A stretch of DNA of 64,000 bases, taken from NCBI GenBank assembly GCA_937941095.1, contig CALDYJ010000004.1, positions 1-64,000 on the forward strand, written 5' to 3'. Position numbers and translations under genes: made by a program. The first letter of the stretch is position 1; every line of letters starts with the position of its first letter. Positions 6,240 through 13,021 of the stretch are shown one piece after another. Origin of the DNA: an uncultured Saprospiraceae bacterium (GTDB taxonomy: Bacteria > Bacteroidota > Bacteroidia > Chitinophagales > Saprospiraceae). Below the pieces are notes generated by a model. The model was not told where the DNA came from, did not search any database, and saw nothing but the letters and a program-made list of their open reading frames with translations.

Positions 6240-7559
6240 TTATGCTTCTTTTTTTATTAATTCTTTGCAATAATTTATCATCCCTTCTAAAACGATCTGC
6301 CAGCCTTCCCATTCCTCTTTTAAAGAGGAATTGTGCCAGATAAATACAAAATCGCCACCATAGGTCTTGATGGCATCAATGATAGAAATGGCTTTCTCCA
6401 AGGCTATTGAAGGGGATAGTTTTAAATAATTCCTTAGGCTTACATCCATGACTTGAAATGGATGAATCTTTAAATTAGTCACTTGTTCAGTATGGAGATC
6501 ATACCAATAATAGGGAATGCATATCCCCGCTCTAAAGCCTATTTGATCAGGATACCCCATTGTATAATCATGCTCGATTCCAGCATCAATCAGCGCTCGA
6601 TAAGTATCTGGTAATTCAAGTTTCAAAAAGTGTTGCCTACTCTTTACAATGGGTTTTTGAATGATTTTCTCTAAGGTATACTTCTCAAGTTCAATTTTTG
6701 CTGTTTTAGAGTTTGAAGCATAAGAAGGATGAATGCCAATTTGAGCATTTAGTTCAAGTTTTTTAATTAATTCCTGGAATTGTTCATGCTCTACAGAAAT
6801 GTTTTTATCGTATTTACCATGTTTACCTGCTAAGACAAAATATATTGGTTTTAAACCTTTATTGACTTTGTCCAAGTAATTATAATTATCAAAAGGATCT
6901 TTTTCTTTATTTTTTAAAACCCTTAGTCTTTTTGCTAAGTTTTTCCGGTCACCAGTAGAGAGGTCTTTTATAAGTCCCAATGCATTTCTGCTAAACCCTT
7001 TATTTTTAAAAGACCAAGCCATATCAATATCATAGCTTGGTGAAAATGAAAAATTCGGTTTTTTTATTTTTAGCCCATTGAATTTTATTTTTAGCTGGGA
7101 TGCTAATAAATCCACCCACACATTTATGAGAGGAATGTTTAGTGCATTCATCTTCGCTAAAATGGAATTACTTGATTTATAGCGTGCATGTTCATCTTTT
7201 TCTTGGTCTGCATATTCTTCCATACGACTTAAAAGATAAAAACTGCCTGCTAAAATATCTGCTGGGATAAGCTCTAGTTCATTGGGATAAAGAAAAGGTA
7301 TGTTGTTAATTGTTTTGTAAGAAGGCCTTGTGGACAAACTTGTTTCAAATAATAGCTTCGCAGCCTTAATGTAGAGGTGATTTCCAAATGTATTTTCCGT
7401 TCCATAATAAACTTTAGCCTTCTCATTATTTTTAAGCTCATCTTTAGAAGTTGTGACAAGCGGATTTAGGCCAAGAATTTGTTTAAAAATAATCTCAATA
7501 ATGTAATTTAAACGAGTGCTTGTTTTATCTACACAAATGAGAATTGAAGAATGTTGCAA
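6240..7559 (-). CDS. Polysaccharide-deacetylase-like protein
   Basis: A 439-residue soluble protein. The N-terminal third, with LYPNELELIPADILAGSFYLLSRMEEY, resembles the DUF7033-type domain that precedes polysaccharide deacetylase domains in Bacteroidota. The rest shows a NodB-like fold: FSFSPSYDIDMAW (candidate metal-binding Asp pair), IGIHPSYAS (candidate metal-binding His), SRQHFLKLELPDTYRALIDAG and late FIWHNSSL. The start is a TTG at 7559; no ATG occurs for more than 100 codons, and the frame stays open a little upstream. It probably acts on envelope or exopolysaccharide sugars; the substrate is unknown. Confidence 0.8.
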   Translation of the reverse strand: MQHSSILICVDKTSTRLNYIIEIIFKQILGLNPLVTTSKDELKNNEKAKVYYGTENTFGNHLYIKAAKLLFETSLSTRPSYKTINNIPFLYPNELELIPADILAGSFYLLSRMEEYADQEKDEHARYKSSNSILAKMNALNIPLINVWVDLLASQLKIKFNGLKIKKPNFSFSPSYDIDMAWSFKNKGFSRNALGLIKDLSTGDRKNLAKRLRVLKNKEKDPFDNYNYLDKVNKGLKPIYFVLAGKHGKYDKNISVEHEQFQELIKKLELNAQIGIHPSYASNSKTAKIELEKYTLEKIIQKPIVKSRQHFLKLELPDTYRALIDAGIEHDYTMGYPDQIGFRAGICIPYYWYDLHTEQVTNLKIHPFQVMDVSLRNYLKLSPSIALEKAISIIDAIKTYGGDFVFIWHNSSLKEEWEGWQIVLEGMINYCKELIKKEA

Positions 7560-7755: not shown

Positions 7756-8115
7756 ATGTCAGAGAAAAAAATCAAACAAAATGGATTAGTAAGAGGTGAA
7801 CTTAACACCATTCGTGACATACTCATGGGTCAACAAATTAGTGAGTATGAAGATAGGTTCTCTAATTTAGAGAAAGGTTTTGATCTATTGAAAGCTCAAA
7901 TCTTGAATGAGATGCAAGATTTGAAAACAACTAGTGATTCTAACACTAGAATAATGAATGAAAACATTAACATCAAACTCAAAGAGCTTGAACAAAATCT
8001 AAAAGGAAATACAGAAAAATTGTCTGAGGAACTAAATACCACGAAAAAGAATCTAAACGAAAAAATAGCCATCAGTTTTATTGAATTTGGGAAAAAAATG
8101 CTAGAAGAACTTTAA
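7756..8115 (+). CDS. Small coiled-coil protein of the GTPase cassette
   Basis: A 119-residue protein that I cannot assign to a named family. The first 35 residues (ELNTIRDILMG, then QQISEYEDRFSNLE) form a short head, and residues 35-110 are a heptad-rich, highly charged coiled coil with no Cys and no membrane segment. It is the first gene of a tight plus-strand group: 9 bp separate it from the next gene, which is followed by a Ras-like GTPase and a sensor-like protein. A scaffold or oligomerisation role in that group is inference from context. Confidence 0.8.
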   Translation: MSEKKIKQNGLVRGELNTIRDILMGQQISEYEDRFSNLEKGFDLLKAQILNEMQDLKTTSDSNTRIMNENINIKLKELEQNLKGNTEKLSEELNTTKKNLNEKIAISFIEFGKKMLEEL

Positions 8116-8124
8116 GAAAAAAGA

Positions 8125-8946
8125 GTGGCCGAATCACATAAACCTATACATGATGAAGTTCTTTTAGACAGACTAAAAGAAATACTCCTTTGGGATGATA
8201 GAAAGGAATTGGATGAGATAAAACAAATCTTGGATACACGAGCACATCTATCTGAAAGAGTTTCACCAATTATCGAAGAACATTTGAGTGCTTTAAAAGA
8301 AACATTTTCTGAAGATTACAAAGAGATAATAAACAAACTCATCGAGGTTAAATTAAAGAACTCTCAAGAAGAGATTGTTAATTCTCTATATCCTTCATTG
8401 GGTAGGATGATAAAAAAATACATCGGACATCAATTTGAATTATTAAAAGAGAATATTGATAACAGTGTAAAAAAAACATTCTCACCTGCAGGATTTAAAA
8501 GAAGAGTGAAGTCATTTTTTACAGGAGTGAAAGAAAGTGAACTCATTTTATCAAACGCAAATAATTACACCATACAAGAAGTATTTCTGATCGAAAGAGA
8601 TTCAGGCTTATTGATGGGCTCAGCAAGTTTGCATACAACATTTGATCAGGATGTCGTAGCTGGCATGTTGACAGCTATAAAAGCATTTGTAGAAGATGCA
8701 TTTAAAAAAGAAAAACAAGAATTGGAGTTTATTGAGTATGGAAATTATAAAATTGTGATACAAACTTTTTTTTCTTATTATATGGCTGCAGCAATAGACG
8801 GAACAATGATTACGCAGGAAAAATTTGATGTAGAAGAATCTATGCATGATTTTGCATCAGCAGAGCTCACAGGAGCTAAATCTTCCGAAGTATCTAATTC
8901 TGAATTGATTTCGAAAAAACTTTATGAATACTTTATAAAAAAATAG
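8125..8946 (+). CDS. Uncharacterised GTPase-associated protein
   Basis: A 273-residue protein starting with GTG. Residues 1-110 are helical and charged. A basic patch (about 125-140, FKRRVKSFFTGVKESE) leads into a well-ordered C-terminal half with alternating strands and helices: IQEVFLIERDSGLLMGSAS, DQDVVAGMLTAIKAFVEDAF, then LEFIEYGNYKIVIQTFFSYY and MAAAIDGTM. That pattern suggests a longin- or roadblock-like sensor fold, which often partners small GTPases, but I cannot confirm the assignment. There is no signal peptide. It sits between the coiled-coil gene and the GTPase gene (18 bp upstream of the latter). The function is unknown. Confidence 0.78.
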   Translation: MAESHKPIHDEVLLDRLKEILLWDDRKELDEIKQILDTRAHLSERVSPIIEEHLSALKETFSEDYKEIINKLIEVKLKNSQEEIVNSLYPSLGRMIKKYIGHQFELLKENIDNSVKKTFSPAGFKRRVKSFFTGVKESELILSNANNYTIQEVFLIERDSGLLMGSASLHTTFDQDVVAGMLTAIKAFVEDAFKKEKQELEFIEYGNYKIVIQTFFSYYMAAAIDGTMITQEKFDVEESMHDFASAELTGAKSSEVSNSELISKKLYEYFIKK

Positions 8947-8964
8947 TCTTTAAGTAAACATAGT

Positions 8965-9450
8965 ATGACTAGTAAAAAGATAATATTAACAGGAAGCTTT
9001 GGTGTTGGGAAAACATCATTATTTAATCAATTTATTTTCAATAAATTTAGTGATAAGTACCTCACAACTATAGGGGTGAAAGTAAATAAAAAGTCTGTTT
9101 TTGTTGATGGCGAAGAAGTTAATTTGTTGGTGTGGGATATTGCTGGAGAGGTTTCTCAAGACAAAGTTCCAACTTCCTATTTTTTAGGAGCCAGCGGTAT
9201 AATATATGTTTTCGACCTTACAAGGCCTCTGACCTATAAGAATCTTGAAAAAGATATCGATTACCTCAAACAAATACTGCCAGGTGGGTTGATAAAAATT
9301 GTAGGAAATAAAAAAGATTTATTAGAAGAAGATGCAATTGCAAAAGTTGTCAATGATGTAACAATGCCTATTAGTATTTTAACCAGTGCTAAATCTGGAG
9401 AAAATGTTGAAGACTTATTCAACGATCTGGCAAAAAGCCTTATAAAATGA
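8965..9450 (+). CDS. Ras-like small GTPase (Rup/Rab-like)
   Basis: A 161-residue single-domain GTPase with all five G motifs: P-loop GSFGVGKTS (10-18), switch I Thr35 in TTIG, WDIAGE (57-62), NKKD (115-118) and TSAK (140-143). The residue equal to Ras Gln61 is Glu62, so intrinsic hydrolysis may be low and an activating partner needed. There is no C-terminal Cys motif for lipidation, as expected in bacteria. Prokaryotic Ras-superfamily proteins of this kind include MglA and the uncharacterised Rup group. It overlaps the next gene by 4 bp (ATGA), so the two are translationally coupled. Confidence 0.92.
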   Translation: MTSKKIILTGSFGVGKTSLFNQFIFNKFSDKYLTTIGVKVNKKSVFVDGEEVNLLVWDIAGEVSQDKVPTSYFLGASGIIYVFDLTRPLTYKNLEKDIDYLKQILPGGLIKIVGNKKDLLEEDAIAKVVNDVTMPISILTSAKSGENVEDLFNDLAKSLIK

Positions 9451-10538
9451 ATGCCTTCTATTCCATAGGAAAAAAAAGAGCCATTGAATTTTGCCAATCC
9501 ATTCTATTTGATGATAAAGGTAAGCTTGTAAATTCATGTGATACTATATTTAGCACAAAGCAGTTTTCTGCTAAACAACAAAAGGTTCAAGATTGGTTTA
9601 CGTTTTTAGAATCAGTAATGCCTATAATAACTACGCTCAAGGAAGGAGATCCAGAAATTTTATTTACTAAAGTTCAATCCCCAAGCGAAATATTACCTGG
9701 TTTTTATGATTTTTCTTTTACTAGAGTAATCTTAAAAGGTGAGTCATTTATCCTTTGGCTGGTTTATGATTATACTCAACTTTACAATGGGTTTTTACAA
9801 TATCAACAGGCCAAAAATGAGATTGAAATCCAAAGACAAATATTTGAAGCTAATCACAAAAAAATTTCAAAACCAAGTGATGTCTTCAAGCATAAAAATT
9901 ACTTCAAAGAAACATACAATGATCAGCTCATTAATAGCAATTATGTTTTTGTAGTCTTAAGAATAATCGGAATGTCTTTTCCTGTTCACGAGATAGTACA
10001 TGATTTTGGTTCTTATCAAGGGATCTCCAATCATTTAGAAGAAAACAAAAGTGCCCTTGCAGCATTAGAAAAAGAATTCTTCATTTTTCTTGGAGAAGAA
10101 AATGAAGCACTCGAAATTAACTTTTTGCCTACTAAACTTTTGTCCCAAGTTTTTCGCGAAATCAAAAAAAGTAAACCTCAACTAAATATATCGTTAATAA
10201 ATGCACAGCAAATCCAAGAGCCCCTCTTTGGGAAAGCAAATGTAATAGCCCAAGTGCTTTATTCCTTGCTTATTAATACAATGGGTGAACTTCACTTTAA
10301 TGTGCCTGAAATTAGTATGGATTTAGAATACGATGATGAACTAATGTTAATAACAACGGTTGGCCAAAAAATTAAAAACAATCACCGAATTGACGATTAT
10401 TTAATCATTTCAAAAAGATTGCATCTGCTGAAGTTGTTGATTAAGCGAAGCAGGGGAAAATTGGTCTGTAAATATGAGGCTGAAACTGAAATTTTGTCCA
10501 TAATTTTCAAAATCCCCATAAAAAAAGTGCATTCTTAA
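9447..10538 (+). CDS. PAS-like sensor protein with degenerate kinase-type ATPase domain
   Basis: A 363-residue protein starting in the GTPase stop (ATGA overlap). Residues 1-125 look like a PAS-type sensor domain (AIEFCQSILFDDKGKLVNS, FDFSFTRV-like strands, LWLVYDYTQLYNGFLQYQQA). A helical linker follows, and the last 170 residues resemble a histidine-kinase ATPase fold: KANVIAQVLYSLLINTMGE stands where an N-box would be. No clear G1/G2 glycine boxes and no phospho-accepting H box are visible, so it is probably not an active kinase. It may sense a signal and relay it to the GTPase. Family assignment is tentative. Confidence 0.75.
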   Translation: MNAFYSIGKKRAIEFCQSILFDDKGKLVNSCDTIFSTKQFSAKQQKVQDWFTFLESVMPIITTLKEGDPEILFTKVQSPSEILPGFYDFSFTRVILKGESFILWLVYDYTQLYNGFLQYQQAKNEIEIQRQIFEANHKKISKPSDVFKHKNYFKETYNDQLINSNYVFVVLRIIGMSFPVHEIVHDFGSYQGISNHLEENKSALAALEKEFFIFLGEENEALEINFLPTKLLSQVFREIKKSKPQLNISLINAQQIQEPLFGKANVIAQVLYSLLINTMGELHFNVPEISMDLEYDDELMLITTVGQKIKNNHRIDDYLIISKRLHLLKLLIKRSRGKLVCKYEAETEILSIIFKIPIKKVHS

Positions 10539-10655: not shown

Positions 10656-11483
10656 ATGAATAGATTTCTTACCATATTCTTCTTCTTCGTAAGTCTTGGC
10701 TTTATTACAGCACAAGGGGTATATAATCCTAAGGAAGAGAATAATGGGAATCGTGGGATTATTTTCGATAAAGAGTTGGTAGGTGAACTACAGCTTCAGA
10801 CGAATGGCTTCTTTATAGGGGCAAACATCGGAAAGCTTAAAACTTATTATAAGACCTCTTTTATTCACCTTAGCTTTGGAGAGCTTAAGCATCCGAAAGA
10901 ACATAAAAATAGAGACGACATAAGAACCTCTGGTCTGCAGGAAAATGCAAGATCTTATGTATTTGGAAAGCAGAATAATCTTTTCGCTTTTAGAGCAGGA
11001 ATGGGCGTAAAAAGGTATCTGTCCGAAAAAGCAAGAAGAAAAGGCTTAGCTGTAGGTATTAGTTATGAAGCTGGACCAACCTTAGGTTTGCTAAAACCAT
11101 ATTATTTGGACGTTAGAAGATCTGAAATCAATAATCAGAATCCAGTTAGTCAAAAGTATAATGGCGAAAATGCAGAGACATTTTTGAACACAGATAGAAT
11201 ATTTGGTGCTTCATCAGTATTAAAAGGTCTAGGAGAAGTCAAAGTCAGACCAGGGATACACCTTAGAGGTGGCTTACATTTTGATTGGGGAGCTTTTGAT
11301 GAGCTTGCTAAAGCTATGGAGATTGGTATAATGGCAGATGTGTTTTTTGGAGACATCAACATCATGGTGGATGAGGCTGAGCTTATAAATCCAAGACCTG
11401 CCGTCATTCTTCCCGAGAATGTAAAGAATCAGCCATTTTTCATCAACTTCTATGTGAGCATCCAATTAGGAAAAAGAAGGTAA
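10656..11483 (+). CDS. Secreted, probable outer-membrane barrel protein
   Basis: A 275-residue protein with a clear signal peptide (MNRFLTIFFFFVSLGFITAQ, cleavage after the Ala-Gln). The mature part has repeated amphipathic strands rich in aromatic and glycine residues (NGFFIGANIGKLKTYY, FAFRAGMGVKRYL, GISYEAGPTLGLLKPYY, FFINFYVSIQLGKR at the C-terminus), as expected for a small outer-membrane beta-barrel. I do not recognise a named family; the function is unknown. It is followed 89 bp later by an OmpA-family gene on the same strand. Confidence 0.75.
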   Translation: MNRFLTIFFFFVSLGFITAQGVYNPKEENNGNRGIIFDKELVGELQLQTNGFFIGANIGKLKTYYKTSFIHLSFGELKHPKEHKNRDDIRTSGLQENARSYVFGKQNNLFAFRAGMGVKRYLSEKARRKGLAVGISYEAGPTLGLLKPYYLDVRRSEINNQNPVSQKYNGENAETFLNTDRIFGASSVLKGLGEVKVRPGIHLRGGLHFDWGAFDELAKAMEIGIMADVFFGDINIMVDEAELINPRPAVILPENVKNQPFFINFYVSIQLGKRR

Positions 11484-11572: not shown

Positions 11573-13021
11573 ATGAAATTTCTTTTTACCATCATTTTGT
11601 CATGCTTTCTTATTTCGGGAATTTTTGCCCAGGATAAGCCCATCAAATTGAGAAATCCTTCTTTTGAAGGCACGCCGCATGTAGGTACTTTAAACTTTGT
11701 AAATAGAATAGCAGGTTGGTTTGATTGTGGCTTGAGAAAGTTTCCAACAGAGTCTCCACCTGATTTACACATGGGAGGTGAAATTTCTCAATATTTTAAA
11801 GTTGATTCAAAAGCCCAGCATGGTAATACATACATTGGTATGGTTGTGAGGGACAATGACACATGGGAATCAGTTTCACAATCTTTATCTGCGCCCCTTG
11901 AGGCAGGACAATGTTATCAATTTAGTTTGTACTTATCTAAATCAGAAGAATATAGATCGCCTGCTCGGAATAGTGGCATTTTGATTGAAGAAGCAGTAAG
12001 TGAAGGAATAAAAGTAGATAGCATTGACCACATTACTCCTTGTGTATTGCGTGTATGGGGAGGGACAGGTCCGTGTCAAAGCAGCCAAACAGAACTGCTT
12101 GCCGAAACAAATGTAGTGACCCACGAAAGGTGGATACAATACGATTTTAAATTAGAACCTAAGCAAACACATTATTTTTTAACATTGGAAGCGTATGTTA
12201 AGACCCCTAGTCTTTTTCCTTATAATGGGCATATACTCTTAGACAATTTATCTGAGATTATCCCAATCCCTTGCGAAACTCCGGAACCTATTGTTGCATT
12301 TTCAAGACCTGCTCAAAAGAATTTAAAAACAGAAAAGAGTAATTACGCGCTTGAAGGAAGTATTGAAAATGTGTATTCAAAAAACGACGTAAGATTTTTA
12401 ATCAATGGGAAGGCAAATCAAAATTTCGAATACTCAAAAGAGGATGGTAAATTTTCTGCAAAGGTGAAATTGAAATTAGGAGAAAACAAGTTTGAACTAA
12501 TTGGAAAAAATGGGGAAGGAGAAGATACAGATGAAGTATACATCGTTTACAAAAAACCCGTCGTCATTAAAGAAGAACCTGCTGTCGATGTTGCTGTTAC
12601 TGATCCCGTTGTCATTAATCCTAAGCCCAAAACAGAAACAAAGCTATTAGGAATAGAACGGAAAGAATTGAAAAAAGAACTCACCTTAGAAATTAAAGAT
12701 TTAAGGTTTGAGTCTGATTCTGCTCGGGTCAGAGCTATGTATTATCCTATCTTAGATAAAATCTATGATTTCTTAATCTCTAATGCTGATGTAAAGATTG
12801 AAGTAGGAGGGCACACAAATGATAGGTGTTCAGATGGATTTTGTAATGAACTGTCCGAAAAAAGAGCGAAAGCTGTTGCTGACTATTTAATAAAGAGAGG
12901 CATTCCTGCTGGTCAAATCCAACACAAAGGTTATGGCAAGACGAAACCAGTTGCTAGAAATACTACTGAATTTGGACGGAAAAAAAATCAGCGGGTAGAA
13001 ATTAAAGTACTAGTAGATTAG
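11573..13021 (+). CDS. OmpA-family protein with N-terminal beta-sandwich domain
   Basis: A 482-residue secreted protein with a signal peptide ending near FAQ (residue 19). Residues 20-230 form a carbohydrate-binding-like beta sandwich (LRNPSFEGTPHVGTLNF, QCYQFSLYLSKSEEY, HILLDNLSEI), a type found in many Bacteroidota surface proteins. A middle domain (about 245-325) looks Ig-like, then comes a Pro/Val linker. The C-terminal 115 residues are an OmpA peptidoglycan-binding domain with LRFESDSARV, IEVGGHTND, LSEKRAKAVADYL and NQRVEIKV motifs. It probably links the outer membrane or an exported complex to the cell wall. It ends 13 bp from the convergent aroA. Confidence 0.9.
   Translation: MKFLFTIILSCFLISGIFAQDKPIKLRNPSFEGTPHVGTLNFVNRIAGWFDCGLRKFPTESPPDLHMGGEISQYFKVDSKAQHGNTYIGMVVRDNDTWESVSQSLSAPLEAGQCYQFSLYLSKSEEYRSPARNSGILIEEAVSEGIKVDSIDHITPCVLRVWGGTGPCQSSQTELLAETNVVTHERWIQYDFKLEPKQTHYFLTLEAYVKTPSLFPYNGHILLDNLSEIIPIPCETPEPIVAFSRPAQKNLKTEKSNYALEGSIENVYSKNDVRFLINGKANQNFEYSKEDGKFSAKVKLKLGENKFELIGKNGEGEDTDEVYIVYKKPVVIKEEPAVDVAVTDPVVINPKPKTETKLLGIERKELKKELTLEIKDLRFESDSARVRAMYYPILDKIYDFLISNADVKIEVGGHTNDRCSDGFCNELSEKRAKAVADYLIKRGIPAGQIQHKGYGKTKPVARNTTEFGRKKNQRVEIKVLVD

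Follow-up and report, generated by a model that had tools for sequence, protein, structure and literature searches.

The 64,000-nucleotide window analysed here (the whole stretch of DNA under study, positions 1 to 64,000 of contig CALDYJ010000004.1 from an uncultured Saprospiraceae bacterium) contains an operon of four open reading frames, all located on the + strand and following each other at intergenic distances of 9 bp and 18 bp and then with a 4-bp overlap, exactly as the first-pass annotation of this sequence had described. Gene 1 (7756..8115, +) is an ORF encoding a coiled-coil protein of 119 amino acids. Gene 2 (8125..8946, +), with a GTG start, encodes a protein of 273 amino acids comprising a helical N-terminal half and a predicted C-terminal longin-like domain, which in the AlphaFold2 model spans residues 145-273 (8557..8943, +). 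Gene 3 (8965..9450, +; 161 amino acids) encodes a Ras-like (Rup) GTPase. Gene 4 (9447..10538, +; 363 amino acids) encodes an output-type protein, in which alignments distinguish an N-domain, a glutamine motif and a decayed histidine-kinase part.

The neighbourhood of Group 1 Rup GTPases was described in 2014 by Wuichet and Sogaard-Andersen (Genome Biol Evol, PMC4316618). In that description the GTPase, devoid of the G3 Gln, is accompanied by a coiled-coil protein, by an 'Unc' domain protein, often with a membrane helix and OmpA, and by an output protein, typically a kinase or a c-di-GMP enzyme, whose N-terminal region carries an invariant Gln; the idea of hydrolysis dependent on a glutamine provided in trans was also outlined by these authors (PMC4316618). 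Biochemical or genetic work on any Rup system was found neither in PMC4316618 nor in the literature searched. Judged by operon content and motifs, the window operon belongs, as a Bacteroidota variant, with the Group 1 Rup cassettes and does not constitute a system of a new kind: it has the coiled-coil neighbour, the 'Unc' protein, the GTPase without the G3 Gln and the output with an invariant-Gln N-terminal region, but it lacks the TM/OmpA part and the catalytic part of its kinase has decayed. We speak of a variant because the published description calls an intact output enzyme 'typically' present. The cassette is thus the published neighbourhood, which the first-pass annotation had missed, and not uncharted. 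In this comparison the gene 2 domain is equated with the published 'Unc' by position and architecture (a homologous domain occurs in the OmpA-bearing relatives), and Q121 of gene 4 is taken as the same residue as the published invariant Gln. Three elements go beyond the published work that was found: the predicted longin fold, the short partner devoid of TM/OmpA, and the decay of the kinase with retention of the Gln motif. Chief among them is the longin assignment of the 'Unc' partner. To the outputs known from relatives, sigma-54 activators and adenylate cyclase are also added here.

Gene 3 encodes, as recognized in the first pass, a small GTPase whose Ras-family domain is complete (Pfam Ras, E 8.5e-31) and whose G1 (P-loop), G4 and G5 motifs are intact; its nearest PDB sequences are Rab14 and Sec4. 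The G3 motif reads WDIAGE and is devoid of the catalytic Gln, which is missing in 33/33 GTPase relatives examined. The G3 Asp, D58, is invariant in the GTPases. MglA homologues have been reported to carry Thr in place of this Asp (PMC3000849); the GTPases studied here do not have this MglA-family feature and, with Asp at the Thr position of MglA, do not represent an MglA system. The earlier proposal of a four-gene cassette around a Ras-like GTPase is supported, this GTPase being of the Rup and not of the MglA kind. Like MglA-MglB, the operon pairs a small GTPase and a protein whose predicted fold is of the roadblock/longin class, but it differs in the presence of the G3 Asp and in that Robl_LC7 remained unmatched in the 41 relatives searched. 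The genome contains a single Ras-like small GTPase; two other matches to the Ras profile fall in long frames (543 and 924 amino acids). In locus L032 the GTPase (8542-9030) has G3 in the form DIAD, not DxxG, with the glycine lost, and the adjoining output (9044-10213) is devoid of the conserved Gln; the Gln and the G3 glycine have been lost together in this single case. The protein encoded at L084:7037-7555 is an orphan, divergent Rup-like GTPase with altered G2 and G3 motifs, for which no longin partner was detected.

The product of gene 1 had been annotated as a coiled-coil protein, and its sequence pattern is of the low-complexity/coiled-coil-like type, all Pfam and NCBIfam matches being below cut-off. 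It carries the N-terminal motif IRDILMG, and its relatives, which occur throughout the phylum as well as on plasmids of Nostoc and rhizobia, have a C-terminal motif [DK]RxxLxxLL and adjoin the longin gene in most loci. The profiles of genes 1 and 2 cross-match in relatives (E 0.0017-0.012), which suggests a common N-terminal helix motif [IL][RK][DE]IL[LM] in the two proteins, possibly a common docking element.

For gene 2 no Pfam or NCBIfam family was found above cut-off. Its relatives from other classes of the phylum are proteins of about 600-740 amino acids with a TM and OmpA half; this half is absent from the window protein and its relatives, so that gene 2 proteins of this lineage are probably soluble. 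The relative encoded in Nostoc (L063:3647-5938) has an N-terminal half in which helical units of roughly 22 residues (ALxPxIxxAI type) are repeated in tandem, and in the L025 relative the N-terminal unit is seemingly duplicated. The AlphaFold2 model of gene 2, built on a two-sequence alignment, was unreliable for the helical N-terminal half; residues 145-273 were modelled in the topology ββαβββαα with pLDDT mostly 50-85. In structure searches with Foldseek and VIA-align the matches were headed by longins, of which many act together with small GTPases. VIA-align matched the domain to an AP-2 sigma subunit (Z 13.5, 117 residues, 2.4 A), Mon1-Ccz1 (Z 12.1), Sec22b (11.3) and TRAPP (11.3). The prediction thus ascribes to the C-terminal domain of the 273-residue protein the fold of known GTPase partners, and the longin/roadblock-like C-terminus suspected in the first pass can be specified, by fold and profile matches, as longin. 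At the sequence level, a profile of 31 bacterial domains gave two PDB matches at E <=10, the top one being TRAPP Bet5 with E 0.029, not significant alone; Fuz_longin_1, the Pfam longin of FUZ/MON1/HPS1, matched 3/26 gene 2 members with the best E of 0.0012, below the curated cut-off; and the full gene 2 profile, run against the PDB, retrieved a chance-level match only. Each of these signals is modest, and it is the model and the weak sequence signals combined that favour longin over roadblock and make longin the most likely fold of the 'Unc' domain. The gene 2 domain would then resemble the eukaryotic longin partners of Rab (Mon1-Ccz1, TRAPP Bet5) and AP sigma in predicted fold and weak sequence similarity, and the Rab partners also in association with a Rab-like GTPase, seen here by operon and co-occurrence; it differs from eukaryotic longins in that the rest of the bacterial protein has no detectable homology. 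The literature, in which subscription papers were mostly outside the scope so that absence is weak evidence, yielded no mention of a 'bacterial longin' or 'prokaryotic longin'.

A longin fold alone is no proof of GTPase binding; a link between genes 2 and 3 is seen in their distribution. Searches of related genomes revealed gene 2 in the same genus, in the same family and beyond. A check of co-occurrence advised in the first pass came out positive: the order coiled-coil gene, gene 2, GTPase, gene 4 recurs in most loci read, in several genera and families, and also on Nostoc and rhizobial plasmids. Among 395 genomes sampled across the phylum, the gene 2 profile and the GTPase profile match the very same 14 (hypergeometric 5e-26 on the assumption of independent genomes, a figure that is truly less extreme since the 14 genomes fall into 10 families and share ancestry). 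The GTPase lies on a different contig in 3 of the 14, all from one genus, so the link with gene 2 is not one of adjacency alone. The sets likewise coincide among the 41 nearest genomes, apart from G038, with a divergent GTPase and no detectable longin partner, and G039, with a weak gene 2 match unconfirmed by the profile. Neither gene 2 nor the GTPase had relatives in the viral contigs searched, and genes 1, 2 and 4 had no match in a PHROG search.

Gene 4 gave no Pfam or NCBIfam match above cut-off and no HisKA or HATPase match. Its C-terminal part, the decayed DHp/HATPase region (9840..10535, +), aligns by hhalign to intact kinases with a probability of 93.8, and in the alignments the H-box His, the N-box and the G1 and G2 boxes of the ATPase are lost in the window protein and its close relatives. 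The degenerate ATPase reported in the first pass was therefore read correctly: the profile alignment reaches intact kinases and no HATPase match remains. The fold prediction for gene 4 (pLDDT 30) was unusable. The N-domain (9447..9839, +; about residues 1-131), plausibly of the PAS type by its sequence pattern, is conserved across 30 outputs of differing kinds, and identity between gene 4 relatives is 36-49% in this domain versus 17-26% in the C-terminal part. It ends with the glutamine motif (9807..9821, +), Q121-x-x-N-E125 in the window and Q-x-x-[NRY]-[ED] in general, which lies at a position with Gln in 29/30 outputs and E/D at 125 in 28/30; the conserved Gln is placed in or beside a predicted helix after the N-domain.

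What follows this motif varies from lineage to lineage. Intact hybrid kinases serve as outputs in L001 and L050, a kinase-receiver-Hpt protein in L049, and sigma-54 activators in L051-L053; the plasmid relatives have a hybrid kinase in Nostoc and an adenylate cyclase in rhizobia. In three loci (L026, L027, L030) the gene 4 protein has 112-159 amino acids and stops shortly past the Gln motif. L085-L087, from another family, show the separate decay of an adenylate-cyclase output that has kept QQANE. Downstream of the decayed-cyclase output (L085:6523-7446), these loci have another output gene whose kinase looks intact. Lineages which lack the enzyme and keep the N-domain amount to a natural series of deletions from which the important part can be read, an argument that is new here: enzymes have been gained and lost while the N-domain and the Gln stayed, which points to these two as the GTPase-facing core of gene 4. 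As the C-terminal enzyme is interchangeable and the N-domain with its Gln motif constant, the protein is better read as an effector/output or as a GAP-like factor.

We propose, with a probability of about 0.6 for the explanation as a whole, that the operon is a Group 1 Rup variant with a longin partner, in which the N-domain of gene 4 would engage the GTPase and may supply a glutamine in trans. By analogy with the longin and roadblock proteins acting with Rab and MglA, the longin protein and the coiled-coil protein would bind the GTPase and set its nucleotide state or location. GTP-bound Rup would then engage the N-domain, whose conserved Gln may complete the active site of the GTPase in trans and so end the signal; this part of the proposal fits the absence of the G3 Gln from all 33 GTPases examined and the presence of the motif Gln in nearly all the outputs. 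The attached enzyme, where present, would be controlled by the contact between Rup and the N-domain, and in the window lineage the output would be carried by the contact itself or by another partner recruited through it. The window would thus hold a system in which decay has reduced the customary signalling enzyme to the portion most likely in contact with the switch, together with a partner resembling the longin regulators of related eukaryotic switches. A fold for the 'Unc' protein also provides pairs for experiment, namely the GTPase with the longin protein and the GTPase with the N-domain with or without Q121.

More tentatively, and with the balance of our judgement on the side of doubt, the same data could be extended to a widespread bacterial module of Rab-like GTPase and longin, co-inherited across phyla, in which the trans Gln would complete hydrolysis and the output enzyme would be a dispensable add-on. 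The roadblock/longin families have been called archaeal in origin (PMC10933270). A bacterial longin-like domain tied to a Rab-like GTPase would bear on the origin of the longin/GTPase pairing in eukaryotic membrane traffic and, if true, would mean that longin control of Ras-like switches is not limited to archaea and eukaryotes.

In other lineages the partner is anchored to the membrane and the peptidoglycan through its TM and OmpA parts, and the system might consequently be a positioning device, serving polarity or envelope anchoring, with the enzyme outputs secondary. The OmpA/TM anchor of the long relatives, the twice tolerated loss of the output enzyme and the action of MglA-type GTPases in polarity speak for such a role; we consider it unlikely, though worth keeping in view, as the few neighbours scanned included no recognisable genes for motility or polarity and the anchor itself is gone in the window lineage.

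Rather unlikely, in our estimate, is the reverse flow of information, with gene 4 as a PAS sensor signalling via gene 2 to the GTPase as the final output, in the manner of conservons, whose GTPase has been posited as the output (PMC4316618). The actinobacterial conservon (CvnA-D) is likewise an operon with a histidine-kinase-like protein, a protein of GTPase-partner fold, a small GTPase and a further protein, but it has an MglB-type roadblock and a Group 2 MglA GTPase where the window has a longin-like domain, a Rup GTPase and a coiled-coil protein. The N-domain does have a PAS-like sequence pattern and, with the kinase gone, little but a possible ligand domain is left in gene 4. The C-terminal halves, however, swap among hybrid kinases, adenylate cyclase and a sigma-54 activator equipped with a second PAS of its own, and the near-invariance of the Gln argues more for contact with a protein than for a ligand pocket. 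The role of signal sensor given to the fourth protein in the first pass is thus unsupported, its C-terminal half being an interchangeable output enzyme and its N-domain and Gln the constant part.

That the gene 2 domain is a GAP platform of the roadblock/MglB type instead of a longin we regard as improbable. The two folds have a common core, and a common origin has been argued for them (PMC3521125); Foldseek also retrieves MglB (6izw_C, E 1.6e-3; 6h5b, 6hjm). They differ in topology, as described in PMC10933270, and the model, which ends in two helices and has none packed immediately ahead of strand 1, shows the longin arrangement. The top rows of VIA-align are longins aligned through the last helix (residue 273) over 117-129 residues, whereas the Foldseek alignments with MglB are shorter, about 97-108 columns. 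Robl_LC7 matched neither any gene 2 member nor anything in the 41 nearest genomes, while the controls matched; such a search does not address folds and speaks against a separate MglB, and no MglB-like alternative was thus detected in these relatives.

The operon is maintained by selection, the kinase remnant being its least constrained part. Between the window and one same-genus genome dN rises from 0.17 (GTPase) through 0.31 (gene 2) and 0.43 (N-domain of gene 4) to 0.96 (kinase remnant), a gradient of constraint running from the GTPase through the longin protein and the N-domain to the remnant. A decaying relic, an operon losing its function in the window lineage, is very improbable: the kinase is lost, the C-terminal part of gene 4 diverges fast and one relative (L029) has the first three genes without the fourth alongside, but all frames are open, the P-loop, G4 and G5 are intact, and the GTPase and gene 2 are still 79% and 63% identical, respectively, to those of the same-genus genome despite synonymous sites near saturation.

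Scans for promoters and terminators gave sites in numbers no higher than in shuffles, and the host may use promoters of a different kind. A divergent gene for a VimE-like / DUF7033 deacetylase (6240-7559, -, in the window) lies upstream of the operon in many same-family loci, hinting at a tie to surface polysaccharide or merely at a common control region. On the 3' side, in several genomes of the same genus, the operon is followed by a gene for a 275-amino-acid protein without a Pfam match (10656-11483, +, in the window) and by one for an OmpA-family protein (11573-13021, +), which deserves notice in a lineage whose gene 2 has no OmpA part.
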